Shown: piece by piece, positions 6,633 to 56,413 of the stretch
Numbering within the stretch: the first letter of the stretch is position 1
Layout of the letters: the number at the start of each line of letters is the position of its first letter
Assembly: GCA_017432325.1 (NCBI GenBank)
Contig: JAFRJJ010000040.1
Location: forward strand, 1-64,000
Direction of reading: 5' to 3'
DNA: 64,000 nucleotides
Origin: Solobacterium sp.
GTDB lineage: Bacteria; Bacillota_I; Bacilli_A; Erysipelotrichales; Erysipelotrichaceae
Program-made: the position numbers and the translations under genes
Notes under the pieces: generated by a model
What the model was told of the DNA's origin: nothing
Database searches by the model: none
What the model saw: only the letters and a program-made list of their open reading frames with translations

Positions 6633-7030
6633 ATGAGATGAGAGACCGTGATGAGATCCGGAATGAGCTGCTGCTGTACAACAGGCAGATCAATGATGAA
6701 CAGATCCATGACCTAATCAGGGATATCATTGCCCAGCAGAAGGTGCTTGATACCCTGACGGATGTACAGGATGAAACATTCAATAGACGTCTTTACCTGA
6801 GGGATTACCCTGCGATCCTGACGATCCTGGAACAGTACGCGGCACTGGAAGAGCCCAGTGAGAGCGAACGCTTCAATACCATAAGCATGCTGAGGATGTT
6901 CCTGGCAAGGATGATCGAACAGACAGGACGAAAGACAGAAGAGAAAACACTGGACATGAGCGCGGACATGAAAATGCTGAATGCGCTTTTGGGTATGGAC
7001 GGGCTCAATGATGATCTGAAAATGAAATGA
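6629..7030 (+). CDS. Small helical protein of unknown function
   Basis: A 133-residue hypothetical protein. The Met at 6629 overlaps the NUDIX stop by ATGA, continuing the pattern of the two previous junctions. It is rich in Asp, Glu, Arg and Leu and predicted all-helical (e.g. LLLYNRQINDEQIHDLIRDI), with no signal peptide, membrane segment or recognisable catalytic motif. It ends the operon begun by the Y-family polymerase. No family is recognised. Confidence 0.65.
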   Translation: MNEMRDRDEIRNELLLYNRQINDEQIHDLIRDIIAQQKVLDTLTDVQDETFNRRLYLRDYPAILTILEQYAALEEPSESERFNTISMLRMFLARMIEQTGRKTEEKTLDMSADMKMLNALLGMDGLNDDLKMK

Positions 7031-7093
7031 TCTCCATATGCAGAGGACCTTCGATTGAAGTAAAATATAGGAAAGAAGTGAAAGAGGTACAAT

Positions 7094-7480
7094 ATGTTCA
7101 AGTGGCTGAAAAAACTATTCTCAAAGAAACATGAAACCGAAGAACCTGCACCCGAGGAACTGCCTGTTGTTGAAACACCCGCGGAAACAGTGACTCTGAC
7201 ATTTGTACCCACTCCTGCTGAAGAACAGCAGGAGATGCCGGAATCAAGGTATGACACACCGGAATACCAGGAATTCCTGAAACAGCAGGAAGGAGAGGCT
7301 CCTGAGGTGACAGTCAGCCGGACAGGTGAAGCAGCTCCTGAAGAGGAGTGCCCTGAAGTGGAAGTTGATGCTGAACCGGAAACGGAAACACCGGAGCAGG
7401 AAGAGGCGGAAACAGAAACACCAGAAAAGGAAGAACCGGAAGAAGAACCGAAGGCTGACCGTTCCAAACTGCAGTACTGA
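7094..7480 (+). CDS. Acidic low-complexity protein
   Basis: A 128-residue protein. A short basic amphipathic start (MFKWLKKLFSKKHE) is followed by a Glu/Pro/Thr-rich acidic, probably disordered chain with repeated PE, ETP and EEPE units. It resembles small proteins annotated from the FKW/K-rich start in Bacillota. The start may be a membrane-peripheral anchor. A TAAAAT -10-like box lies about 30 bases upstream, and a strong terminator follows. No function can be assigned. Compositional bias means a chance reading frame cannot be wholly excluded, though the promoter and terminator argue for a gene. Confidence 0.55.
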   Translation: MFKWLKKLFSKKHETEEPAPEELPVVETPAETVTLTFVPTPAEEQQEMPESRYDTPEYQEFLKQQEGEAPEVTVSRTGEAAPEEECPEVEVDAEPETETPEQEEAETETPEKEEPEEEPKADRSKLQY

Positions 7481-7494
7481 TCAGGCCGAGCACA

Positions 7495-7524
7495 GCACCT
7501 CCCTTGAAAACGGAGGTGTTTTTT
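7495..7524 (+). terminator. Rho-independent terminator
   Basis: GCACCTCC (7495-7502) pairs with GGAGGTG (7512-7518), followed by six Ts. Confidence 0.9.
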
Positions 7525-7604
7525 CATGCAGATGTATGCTGAACGGAAACAGCGTACAGTGAACTGCAGTGTACGTATGATACGCTATAATAAAGCGGAA
7601 ACAG

Positions 7605-8144
7605 ATGGAAAATATGGAACTGGTGAAAGTGACAAAAGAGAATATCGAAGAAGCAGTATCCCTGCAGAAAGAACTGTTTCCTGATGAAAACGGGAGGGCG
7701 AATCTTGAGGCGTCCCTCATGGACGGATCGGTCTTTACATATGCCCTGATCTATGAAGAAGGGGAACTGGCAGGGATTATAGGGATCTATGAATATGACG
7801 AAGATCACGAAAGTGCCTGGCTCGGATGGTTCGGGATCAGGGAAGGTCTCCGGCGCAGGCAACTTGGCTCAAAAGCGATCCGCAGGTTCGAAGAAGAAGC
7901 CTCTGCCCGGAGGTACCGTTTTGCCAGGCTATATACCGATGCGTCTGATAACGATGCGGCGATCGCGTTCTACAGAAAAAACGGCTACGTTTCCGAGCTG
8001 TATATGAATCCGGATGATCCGGCTTCCATCGAATATCCGATGCTGATCTTCTCAAAATCATTGACGTTTGATCCGCTCGTTCCATGGAACAGCAGAAACA
8101 TTCACCTGACCGAACAGATCGATCTGCAGAACCGGCAGAAATGA
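7605..8144 (+). CDS. GNAT family N-acetyltransferase
   Basis: A 179-residue acetyl-CoA-dependent acetyltransferase. Motif A is WFGIREGLRRRQLGSKAIRRF (about residues 72-92), whose R-x-x-x-G-x segment binds the acetyl-CoA pyrophosphate. Motif B is AIAFYRKNGYV near residue 124. The acceptor substrate is unknown. A TATAAT at 7586-7591 gives a predicted leader of only about 7 bases. A near-palindrome with GTACA/TGTAC ends (about 7551-7571) precedes the -10 and may be an operator. It is a single gene with a terminator. Confidence 0.85.
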   Translation: MENMELVKVTKENIEEAVSLQKELFPDENGRANLEASLMDGSVFTYALIYEEGELAGIIGIYEYDEDHESAWLGWFGIREGLRRRQLGSKAIRRFEEEASARRYRFARLYTDASDNDAAIAFYRKNGYVSELYMNPDDPASIEYPMLIFSKSLTFDPLVPWNSRNIHLTEQIDLQNRQK

Positions 8145-8171
8145 CGGCTTGTCAGATGGTATCCATACAGT

Positions 8172-8204
8172 GGACAGGCCGTCCTGATCTGCCTGTTCTT
8201 TTTT
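8172..8204 (+). terminator. Rho-independent terminator after the GNAT gene
   Basis: GGACAGGC (8172-8179) pairs with GCCTGTTC (8191-8198, one G-U), followed by a T run. Confidence 0.85.
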
Positions 8205-8344
8205 GGCGGAAGGGTCATTTATGAATATATAAGAATATGATCATATGTTCCGGTTATTTAACAGCAGCTGGGAAGTAATGCTCATTTTGTTTGCAAATTC
8301 ACCTTCTGACGAGGATAATAATTGCATTGAAAGAGGAAATAAAT

Positions 8345-9286
8345 ATGGATGTCACACAGTTCAGGTCCTATCGTGACCGTATTATAAACAATGTCGGAAA
8401 GATGATCCTCGGCAAGGATGAGATGATCCTGAGAGTCATCGTGACCTATCTCTGCTCCGGACATGTCCTGCTGGAGGATGTGCCCGGCACGGGAAAAACG
8501 ATGCTGCTGAGAGCTTTCGCGAGGTCTGTAGGCGGTGAGTTCAAGCGTGTGCAGTTCACACCTGACCTGCTGCCGTCCGATCTGACTGGCATCAATTTCT
8601 ATAACATGAAAACTCAGGAATTCGAATTCCGTCCGGGTCCTGTCTTTTCGCAGATCATCCTGGCTGATGAGATCAACCGCGCTACTCCGCGTACACAGGC
8701 ATCCCTGCTGGAAGCGATGGAGGAGCGCCAGGTAACGATCGACGGCGTCACCAGGAAGATGAAAGAACCGTTTATGGTCATGGCTACGGAGAACCCGCTG
8801 GAAAGCTACGGAACATTCCCGCTCCCGGAAGCGCAGGTTGACCGTTTCTTCATGCGCCTGAGCATGGGCTATATGTCACGTGAAGAAGAACTGGCTGTTA
8901 TTTCCAGGAAACCTGCTTCCCAGATCGTTTCCGAACTGGAACAGGTCGTCAGCGAGGAAGAGACCATGAAGCTGAAGGAAATGGTACGTGATGTCAAGGT
9001 ATCCGGCGCATGCGCGGATTATATGATGGATATCATTACAGCGACCAGGAATGATGAATCCCTCAGCAACGGTGTTTCTACCCGCGGAGGCATCGCGCTG
9101 TACCAGGCCTGCCAGGCATACGCGGCATTGAACGGCAGGGATTATGTGATTCCGGAAGATATCCGTGATCTTGCTCCGTGCATCCTCGCGCACCGCATCG
9201 GTGCTTCCACCGCTTCTCGCAAAGAAACGGAAGCTTATGTGACGCGCCTTGTTTCATCCATTAAGGTACCTCTGGAGGAACTGTGA
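8345..9286 (+). CDS. MoxR family AAA+ ATPase
   Basis: A 313-residue cytosolic AAA+ ATPase. The Met at 8345 is chosen for the AAAGAGG ribosome binding site. Walker A GTGKT is at residues 48-52, and Walker B ILADEINRA at about 105-113 is followed by the family's LLEAMEERQVTIDG. Sensor-region ATENPLESYGTFPLPEAQVDRF is also conserved. MoxR ATPases act as chaperone-like partners of the protein encoded next door (DUF58). A promoter with TTGCAA, a 17-bp spacer and GATAAT lies upstream (about 8290-8325). It starts a three-gene overlapping operon. Confidence 0.93.
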   Translation: MDVTQFRSYRDRIINNVGKMILGKDEMILRVIVTYLCSGHVLLEDVPGTGKTMLLRAFARSVGGEFKRVQFTPDLLPSDLTGINFYNMKTQEFEFRPGPVFSQIILADEINRATPRTQASLLEAMEERQVTIDGVTRKMKEPFMVMATENPLESYGTFPLPEAQVDRFFMRLSMGYMSREEELAVISRKPASQIVSELEQVVSEEETMKLKEMVRDVKVSGACADYMMDIITATRNDESLSNGVSTRGGIALYQACQAYAALNGRDYVIPEDIRDLAPCILAHRIGASTASRKETEAYVTRLVSSIKVPLEEL

Positions 9287-11694: not shown

Positions 11695-13116
11695 ATGACA
11701 GCTTATTCTCAGGAAGAATTCCGGAACTGGATCCTGGAGCAGCAAAATGATCTTTATGAGATCAAAGAAGAAGAGAACCAGATCATTCTGGACGCAGGTT
11801 ATGCGACTGCGACGGTGACCTTTCATGAGCTGAATATCGTTGAACTGATCATCCTGAACGCGGCAGACGGACTGAATCGTTTTTATCTGCATTTCCAGCT
11901 GAATGAAAAGGAACATGCGCAGTCACTGTTCCGTGAAATGCAGGATACGCTGATCGGGCTGCAGGGGCATCATACACTGAAGGTGATGCTGAGCTGTACA
12001 AGTGCCCTCACGACGTCATTCTTTGCGGAAAGCCTCCAGCAGGCAGCAGATTCAATGGGACTCGATTACAGCTTTGAGGCTGTTTCATACAGCCGTCTGT
12101 ATGAAGTCGGAAGTGAAGCGGACGTTATCCTGCTTGCGCCGCAGATCGGCTTTGAACTGGAAAAGGTAAAAGAAGCGTTCCACCACAGAGTCGTTCTCGT
12201 CATACCTGCAAAGATATTTGCCCAGTACAATGCCTATGACCTGATCACGGAGATCCGCAATCAGATCGCTGAACGTGCTGTAGAAAACAAAGAACATAAT
12301 ATCGAGATCACTGCCAATGATGCCGTGATCCTTGTTGTAGTGGTCATCAACAGACGTGATGGAAAACGCTATGGATACAGGGTATACGATCATGGTGAGA
12401 TCGTCATGGACGGTGAAGTCATCAAGCCGAATATGACGCTGCAGGATCTTGAGGATATCATCACGACATGCTATGTCCGCCACAACAATATCGATATCGT
12501 AGGACTTGCGCTTCCGGGAACAGCCGCCTATGGTGAACTGGATTATCCGGAACTCGGTTTCCACCATATCAATATCGAAGAATATTTCTCTGAACGCTTC
12601 CCGATGCGCTTCTACCTGGTCAACGATACCAACGCGGCAGTCGCAGGCTATCATATTGACCACCCGGACGATATTTCCACGGCATTCCTGTACATTCCGG
12701 ACAATATGCTGATACCGGGTGTCGGGATCATGCAGCGCAAAGAGATCATCAAGGGAAAGAACGGCTTTGCCGGAGAAGTGTCTTCCTACTTCAGGTATCT
12801 TTATCCGGATGACAGGAGACTGAACAGCCTGCCGCTGAAGACTGTCCTGACAGATACACTGATGGCGATCATCTGTACCCTTGCGCCGGACAAAGTAGTG
12901 ATCAACTGCCGCCAGTATCCGTTCGTTGATGAACTGAAAGCGGAACTTGAAAAATACATTGATCAGGCATTTATCCCTGAACTGGAGATCACATGGCATA
13001 TGAAGCATTATATGATGCCGGGTATGGTCGTACAGTGTCTGGATTACCTGAATCACGAGAAACTGAAGAGAAGACTGCGCGAAATGCATAAACCGGACAG
13101 AAAAGGAAGACGGTAA
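11695..13116 (+). CDS. PTS IIB-like / ROK-fold fusion protein (copy 1)
   Basis: A 473-residue soluble protein in three parts. Residues 1-92 are an unrecognised alpha/beta domain (QEEFRNWILEQ...). Residues about 95-190 look like a lactose/cellobiose PTS IIB domain: KVMLSCTSALTTSFFAE has the phosphocysteine position at Cys101, and ADVILLAPQIGFELEKVKE matches the second half. Residues about 205-460 have the ROK fold: GLALPGTAAYG, then LVNDTNAAVAGY with the catalytic-base Asp311, then KGKNGFAGEV. The N-terminal DxGGT phosphate loop and the Cys zinc motif of ROK kinases are absent. No helix-turn-helix is seen. A paralog with the same architecture lies at 54983-56413. A sensor or regulator of sugar/PTS state is inferred. 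Confidence 0.7.
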   Translation: MTAYSQEEFRNWILEQQNDLYEIKEEENQIILDAGYATATVTFHELNIVELIILNAADGLNRFYLHFQLNEKEHAQSLFREMQDTLIGLQGHHTLKVMLSCTSALTTSFFAESLQQAADSMGLDYSFEAVSYSRLYEVGSEADVILLAPQIGFELEKVKEAFHHRVVLVIPAKIFAQYNAYDLITEIRNQIAERAVENKEHNIEITANDAVILVVVVINRRDGKRYGYRVYDHGEIVMDGEVIKPNMTLQDLEDIITTCYVRHNNIDIVGLALPGTAAYGELDYPELGFHHINIEEYFSERFPMRFYLVNDTNAAVAGYHIDHPDDISTAFLYIPDNMLIPGVGIMQRKEIIKGKNGFAGEVSSYFRYLYPDDRRLNSLPLKTVLTDTLMAIICTLAPDKVVINCRQYPFVDELKAELEKYIDQAFIPELEITWHMKHYMMPGMVVQCLDYLNHEKLKRRLREMHKPDRKGRR

Positions 13117-15586: not shown

Positions 15587-18674
<3,088 letters not shown>

Positions 18675-18684
18675 TCACATGAAC

Positions 18685-18731
18685 AAAGAGCCGCGGCAGG
18701 GGAGTGATATCCCGGAGCTGCGGCTCTTTTA
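18685..18731 (+). terminator. Terminator of the GH1 pair
   Basis: AAAGAGCCGC (18685-18694) pairs with GCTGCGGCTCTTTT around 18718-18730, with an inner GGGA/TCCC stem, then a T run. Confidence 0.85.
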
Positions 18732-18741
18732 CTGTTTCATG

Positions 18742-18773
18742 AAAAAAGATCCCTGCCCGAGGCAGAGATCTTT
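18742..18773 (-). terminator. Terminator of the convergent GH1 gene
   Basis: On the minus strand, AAAGATC-CTGCC pairs with GCAG-GATCTTTTTT directly after the stop at 18782. Confidence 0.85.
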
Positions 18774-18781
18774 CAGTCTGA

Positions 18782-20281
<1,500 letters not shown>

Positions 20282-54982: not shown

Positions 54983-56413
54983 ATGACAGATAAAGAAATG
55001 TATGAAATTTACCGGAAATGGATTCTGGAACAGACAGATCCGTCTTATGAAATCAATGAAAAAAGCGAAGATGAAATCGACTTTGTAACGGAGAACGCCG
55101 TCGGTCACGTGCAGTTCTATCATCTTGAATTTGAAATCTGTGCCCTCACAATCGAGACCGAAAAATCAGATGAGCCTGTTTTCTTCCTGCATTTTGAAAT
55201 CAAGGATCTTGATCATGCCAAAGATCTGTTCACACAGATGATTGCTTCATTGAAGAAAGCAGGCGCCGACAACAAGGTCAAAGTTCTGTTAAGCTGCACC
55301 TCCGGATTTACCACTTCTTTCTTTGCGGATAAGCTCAATGGTGCTGCGGAAACGTTCGGTCTTGAATATGAGTTCTCGGCTGTTCCTTATACCGAACTGT
55401 TTGAGGCTGCTCAGGACAAGGACGTGATCTTGCTGGCACCGCAGATCGGCTATCTGCTTAAAAAGGCGAAGGAAGTACTGAAAGACAAAGTTATCATCCA
55501 GATTCCCGCCAGTGTATTTGCGTCATACAATGTGACCCAGACCGTCGATCTGATCAAAGAGGAACTGGATAAAGAGGAAAAGGCAGAAGAGATAGCTGAA
55601 GACATTCACGATCCAGAATGGGACAGTTCAATTGCCATTGTGGCCATTATCCGCAGAAACCGCAAATTCGAAATTCACTGGCGTGGAGCGGACAAAGAAG
55701 CAGCGATGGAACGCGGGGTTACTGTGAAAGACGAGATCAATCTCCGCGACCTGGAAGATGTGCTCGATGTTCTGTTCATCCGCCATCCTGAAATCAAAGG
55801 CGTGGCAATCGTGGCTCCGGGTGTTGTATATGAAGGCAGGCTCACACTGCCGACGGTGAAAATCTTCGATGTCGATGTGGTCGGCGAATTCACAAAGAAA
55901 TACGGTCGTACATTTATCCTGTGCAATGATGCCAACGCATCAGCAATCGGCTATTATGCCAATCACCGTGACTGCGGCAATCTTCTTGCCTACTATCATC
56001 CGCTTGGCAACGTTGTCGGCGGTGCCGGTCTTGTCATCAACGGAAATCCGGTTTTCGGAAAGAAGGACTTCGCCGGTGAATGCGCAAACTATTTGAAAAC
56101 ACTCAATTTTTCCGAAGACAGATATGATCTTGCCAGAACACCGGAAGGTATCGTTGAACTGATCACCAAACTTGTCCTGCCGATGATCTGCACGATTGGC
56201 CCGGATACCCTTGCGGTGTACTGTGACCTGCTTACTGATCCGGAAGAATTGAAGGAAAGCCTGAAGAAGTACATCCCTGAACGTCATCTGCCCGAGATTA
56301 TCAAGATGGACAGCCGTTTCTGGGAGCTTTTCTACGGTGCCGGTGTCCTGTTATACAATGTTCTGCATGGAACCTATAAGTACCGTGAAGATCTGGACGG
56401 ATTCAGAAATTAG
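54983..56413 (+). CDS. PTS IIB-like / ROK-fold fusion protein (copy 2)
   Basis: A 476-residue paralog of the protein at 11695-13116. The unrecognised N-terminal domain (about 1-95, with YRKWILEQTDPSYEI) is followed by the IIB domain (KVLLSCTSGFTTSFFADKL, Cys105, and DVILLAPQIGYLLKKAKEV) and the ROK domain (GVAIVAPGVVYEGR; LCNDANASAIGYY; GKKDFAGECANY). ROK's phosphate loop and zinc cysteines are again missing. AGGAG precedes the ATG and it probably shares a transcript with the histidine phosphatase. The role is inferred. Confidence 0.7.
   Translation: MTDKEMYEIYRKWILEQTDPSYEINEKSEDEIDFVTENAVGHVQFYHLEFEICALTIETEKSDEPVFFLHFEIKDLDHAKDLFTQMIASLKKAGADNKVKVLLSCTSGFTTSFFADKLNGAAETFGLEYEFSAVPYTELFEAAQDKDVILLAPQIGYLLKKAKEVLKDKVIIQIPASVFASYNVTQTVDLIKEELDKEEKAEEIAEDIHDPEWDSSIAIVAIIRRNRKFEIHWRGADKEAAMERGVTVKDEINLRDLEDVLDVLFIRHPEIKGVAIVAPGVVYEGRLTLPTVKIFDVDVVGEFTKKYGRTFILCNDANASAIGYYANHRDCGNLLAYYHPLGNVVGGAGLVINGNPVFGKKDFAGECANYLKTLNFSEDRYDLARTPEGIVELITKLVLPMICTIGPDTLAVYCDLLTDPEELKESLKKYIPERHLPEIIKMDSRFWELFYGAGVLLYNVLHGTYKYREDLDGFRN

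Follow-up and report, generated by a model that had tools for sequence, protein, structure and literature searches.

What kind of protein joins a IIB domain of the phosphotransferase system (PTS) to a ROK-like fold in one soluble chain, and what might such a protein do in a gut bacterium? The question is raised by a complete gene (N-terminal domain, PTS IIB and pseudo-ROK; 473 amino acids with an ATG start) that lies on the + strand at positions 11695 to 13116 of the window, i.e., the whole 64,000-nucleotide stretch of a Solobacterium genome analysed here. As read from the open reading frame, from Pfam matches and from an AlphaFold model that was built on an alignment of 63 sequences (mean pLDDT 90 and pTM 0.82 for the whole protein), the product is a single soluble chain of three domains. 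These are an N-terminal domain (residues 1-93; 11695 to 11973, +), a lactose/cellobiose-type PTS IIB domain assigned by Pfam and by superposition of the model (residues 94-200; 11974 to 12294, +), and a ROK-fold domain (residues 203-473; 12301 to 13113, +). The first-pass annotation of this DNA had proposed the same arrangement, an unfamiliar domain followed by a IIB with Cys101 and a degenerate ROK domain, with no HTH or transporter in the chain and no described system of this layout. Pfam, AlphaFold and the relatives of the protein now confirm the three parts, with both the IIB and the ROK folds supported in the predicted model, and neither an HTH nor a transporter domain was matched by Pfam or TIGR profiles. 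A full-text literature search, with subscription journals mostly outside its reach, likewise turned up no description of the layout. Chance can be excluded as its origin, since the frame and the order of the domains are conserved in relatives that are mostly 28-41% identical. The reading that we favor, and to which we give about even chances of being right, is that the window protein is a soluble PTS-linked sensor that would be phosphorylated on Cys101, with its ROK domain changing accordingly.

The gene is one of what is apparently a large and undescribed family of soluble proteins of gut bacteria. Four full-length members are encoded in the window's genome and two of these lie inside the window, where the second copy (476 amino acids; 54983 to 56413, +) had gone unnoticed in the first-pass annotation. 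Across the order, full-length relatives are common, and carrier genomes have several paralogs each; of the 245 genomes of the order that were sampled, 61 contain a full-length match at E < 1e-100, and these 61 belong to two families. Those two families also account for all 19 genomes that a profile of the N-terminal domain alone finds among 392 sampled across the phylum. The loci collected include those of Solobacterium metagenome-assembled genomes (MAGs), Lactimicrobium, Massilimicrobiota, Thomasclavelia, Sharpea and Eggerthia, as well as two contigs of Selenomonadaceae MAGs, one with three tandem copies (L130, 6983-10416) and the other with a member at 7001-8407 (L150). Sharpea azabuensis and Eggerthia catenaformis are carriers that have been cultured. 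It is possible that the Selenomonadaceae members result from transfer outside the order, or from mis-binning. No relative of the family was found on viral contigs. Invariant positions among the 63 aligned sequences are spread over all three domains (L65, H66, F67, C101, T106, A129, P149, Q150, D254, G275, G354, G360, P398 and G443).

The case for a PTS input begins with the IIB domain. PTS_IIB (PF02302) matches residues 96-173 with 37 bits, as compared to a cut-off of 23.6, and residues 94-196 of the AlphaFold model superpose on the IIBchb structure 2wy2_D with a Z score of 18.6 and an rmsd of 1.2 Å over 103 residues. The fold, the P-loop and the Cys are common to this domain and to the lactose/cellobiose IIBs CelA, ChbB and PtcB; the latter, however, stand alone at ~100 amino acids and are coupled to a IIC, whereas the window IIB is part of a soluble multidomain chain and scores only 47 bits against TIGR00853, below the cut-off of 110. 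Codon TGT at 11995 to 11997 (+) specifies Cys101, the predicted site of phosphorylation. The aligned full-length members keep this Cys (63/63), T106 (63/63), T107 (62/63) and the P149-Q150 pair (63/63), the Cys-bearing P-loop being retained in every one of them. A phosphorylated-Cys input to the window protein is plausible, and it has indirect support from the invariant Cys, the P-loop threonines and the co-occurrence of the family with a lactose-type IIA.

The N-terminal domain and the IIB also occur together in short relatives, some of which have Ser, Asp or Ala in place of the P-loop Cys (L162, 15446-16048; L167, 17398-18000; L164, 4163-4777; L180, 7704-8297); as a few of them have lost the Cys, the module can exist without it. 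These replacements, together with the finding that no IIA gene was seen beside the fused genes, are what one might expect if the IIB fold were an interaction module only, with Cys101 retained for structural reasons or for redox or metal chemistry, and with no phosphorylation by the PTS. We regard that explanation as unlikely, given that the P-loop and the Cys are kept together in all of the full-length members and that every well-assembled carrier genome has a IIA.

If the window protein is a PTS-linked sensor, phosphate would pass from PEP to EI, then to HPr, then to a lactose-type IIA and finally to Cys101 of the IIB domain. EI is present in 60/60 relatives. Of the genomes with a full-length copy, all 52 that reach 90% completeness encode a lactose-type IIA; it is missing from four carriers, whose completeness is 72-89%. 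Within the window's genus a lactose-type IIA is found in 22/23 carriers as compared to 11/27 of the non-carriers listed (Fisher p 3e-5, for genomes that are related and with kinship ignored, and from an incomplete list of non-carriers). In the window's genome itself there are 15 PTS_EIIC matches and just one lactose-type IIA, which adjoins a canonical 102-amino-acid IIB and has no IIC beside it. That IIB-IIA pair (locus L181, 7950-8581 on G000:C77) is situated beside a YdjC-like gene and another whose sequence suggests DUF871/MupG; in congeners, HAD and transketolase genes lie near a pair of this kind. In a sister family (L183, L184, L185, L186, L187 and L196) a lactose-type IIA gene comes shortly after rpsL-rpsG-fusA-tuf, in most cases separated from tuf by a gene for a Cof-type HAD protein. 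Both the tuf-linked IIA and the IIA of the window genome's own pair were considered as a dedicated, orphan IIA and set aside, since stand-alone IIB-sized frames of ~100 amino acids exist in 15 of the 15 genomes checked. The IIA thus does not appear to be dedicated, because lactose-type IIAs are common in the order without the family and because stand-alone IIBs and many IICs are also present.

The 15 PTS_EIIC matches set against a single lactose-type IIA would also suit a protein that takes part in transport, its IIB feeding phosphate to lactose/cellobiose-type IICs encoded elsewhere and its ROK domain being an allosteric add-on. Separately encoded PtcA and PtcB, which serve CelB in Lactococcus, are a model for such an arrangement, with ptcA/ptcB and celB lying in two distinct regions of the L. 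lactis IL1403 genome (PMC4286628). We nevertheless consider an auxiliary part in transport to be improbable, as the canonical IIB beside the IIA could serve the permeases and as no PTS family ranks among the most frequent immediate neighbors of the fused genes. Among 102 such neighbors, the commonest are adenylosuccinate lyase, MatE, HAD hydrolases and LysR regulators, the 25 most frequent families include no PTS or glycosidase family, no sugar theme emerges from the neighborhood (a point that also weighs against the sensor reading), and no conserved PTS operon was found around the fused gene. Three GH1 genes, two on the + strand and one on the - strand, lie downstream of the window gene (15658-20248 of the window), and the early suggestion that PTS flux is linked through this protein to GH1 genes nearby does not hold as a general feature: GH1 genes are found no more than six genes away from the window copy, from its ortholog of 92% identity and from the copies at three further loci among ~40, and the neighbors elsewhere are mixed. 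RpiR-type regulators are encoded near several copies of the family (L163, L035, L050, L062 and L069), and cre-like sites in the window are at chance level.

The C-terminal domain is a ROK fold without the phosphate-loop and zinc motifs of ROK kinases. ROK (PF00480) is matched at residues 250-362 with 22.2 bits in the whole protein, as compared to a cut-off of 22.9, and with 24 bits when that part is searched alone; in the AlphaFold model, residues 210-453 superpose on the ROK protein 4htl with a Z score of 22.8 and an rmsd of 2.8 Å over 234 residues. When the PDB is searched with a profile of the ROK part, ROK kinases are matched as well as repressors (5nck best, at 1.8e-16; Mlc, 5e-6). In the matching regions of the alignment, the DxGxT phosphate loop, ExGH and the CxC zinc motif are present in none of the 63 full-length members, which bears out the description of this domain in the first-pass annotation as a ROK with Asp311 and with neither phosphate loop nor zinc motif; ExGH is also missing from several ROK kinases of the order. 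Asp311 (codon GAT; 12625 to 12627, +) aligns with the catalytic Asp of ROK proteins in an ND.NA motif, the position being Asp in 46/63 members, including the window protein, and Asn in 17/63. The ROK fold and the presence of both D311 and E361 in the window protein leave some room for an unusual sugar kinase, an explanation that we find very hard to credit in view of the motifs missing throughout the family, the change of the catalytic Asp to Asn in a good part of it, and the separation of these proteins from ROK kinases in trees.

In those trees, for which the ROK kinases were taken from four genomes of the order, a branch (100/100) separates the fused proteins and their stand-alone ROK relatives from these kinases and from E. 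coli Mlc and NagC. The fused proteins also form one group in both of their halves, with values of 93/97 for the ROK part and 86/95 for the N-terminal domain plus IIB; the end branch of the window protein is long in the ROK half (1.3) and measures 0.44 in the other. In three genomes (L033, L034 and L035) the two halves are split, a gene of 203-217 codons for the N-terminal domain and IIB overlapping a ROK gene that lies after it. The L035 partner combines an HTH with a ROK domain, as ROK repressors do, and is the sole split partner with an HTH match above the Pfam cut-off (HTH_24, 29 bits as compared to 21.9); the L033 partner has a sub-threshold HTH_DeoR match and the L034 partner has no HTH match in Pfam. 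Related stand-alone ROK proteins (L039 and L040) have sub-threshold matches to HTH_24, and N-termini that look HTH-like are seen in stand-alone ROK proteins when the sequences are read by eye. The designation as an HTH regulator is firm for the L035 partner and is a reading of sequence for the other stand-alone ROKs. The ROK repressors NagC, XylR and Lmo0178 have the ROK fold in common with the fused protein and differ from it in that the latter has the N-terminal domain and IIB instead of an HTH. The fused form probably derives from a ROK regulator in which the IIB module took the place of the HTH, and we infer that fusion came after the split form and was accompanied by loss of the HTH. Descent from a DNA-binding regulator is only likely, because the HTH has no family match above cut-off in two of the three split partners and because Mlc and NagC group elsewhere.

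The ROK domain of the putative sensor would, in other words, correspond to the effector part of a former ROK regulator, deprived of its HTH on joining the module of N-terminal domain and IIB, and with the HTH gone its output would probably be made through protein-protein contact. One possible output is that of an anti-repressor, in which the fused protein titrates HTH-ROK regulators in mixed ROK oligomers, as dictated by the phosphorylation of its IIB. A paralog in the window's genome lies directly upstream of a gene for a 314-amino-acid ROK protein (L032, 9971-10915) with an HTH-like N-terminus, of which Pfam recognizes the ROK part only, as such an activity might lead one to expect; most copies have no ROK neighbor, and we rate this particular output as rather improbable.

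Less can be said of the N-terminal domain, for which residues 1-93 gave no match to a Pfam family or to a PDB sequence. His66 and Phe67 are invariant and His74 is kept in 59/63 full-length members; when modelled alone, the domain is predicted to consist of a helix, five strands and a helix. Among known structures the TriTu immunity protein 7zhm_C comes closest (Z 9.1, rmsd 2.2 Å over 79 residues); this resemblance and a single weak Pfam match (E 0.033) obtained with a relative are too little to assign the domain. The lactose-type IIA fold is all-helical, and the predicted strands led us to reject a IIA as well.

With a PTS-linked sensor of this kind, PTS sugar uptake would lower the phosphorylation of Cys101 and this would bring about a change in the neighboring ROK domain, to which a bound sugar ligand might be a second input. 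In E. coli, EIICB-Glc in its dephosphorylated state binds the ROK repressor Mlc and keeps it sequestered (PMC3901232). By analogy, this pair may be regarded as the nearest precedent in mechanism, since there, as proposed for the fused protein, a ROK-fold protein is under the control of IIB phosphorylation. The E. coli system, however, is made up of two proteins, its glucose-type IIB belongs to a membrane transporter, and Mlc, which carries an HTH, falls outside the clade, whereas the fused protein is one soluble chain with a lactose/cellobiose-type IIB and no HTH. The PRD-type regulators LicR, MtlR and AtxA are likewise soluble and have PTS-like domains; unlike them, the fused protein has a ROK domain, and no DNA-binding domain was matched in it, nor a PRD in the window protein by Pfam.

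A further and more tentative proposal, one that we think has a smaller chance of being right than the sensor itself, is that of transport-free PTS signalling, in which one shared lactose-type IIA would feed a set of paralogous soluble IIB-pseudo-ROK receivers, each with its own ligand or partner. If this is true, a gut bacterium would read PTS flux on several channels, in the manner of two-component receivers elsewhere. The split relatives and the predicted phosphorylation site make the idea of a PTS-linked sensor directly testable. Sugar regulation in this order is little known, and the presence of a IIB and an HTH-less ROK domain in a soluble chain suggests that sugar flux may be read inside the cell without a transporter. 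If the sensor reading is right, the family would represent the Mlc-EIIB principle in covalent form, with many paralogs across an order of gut bacteria.
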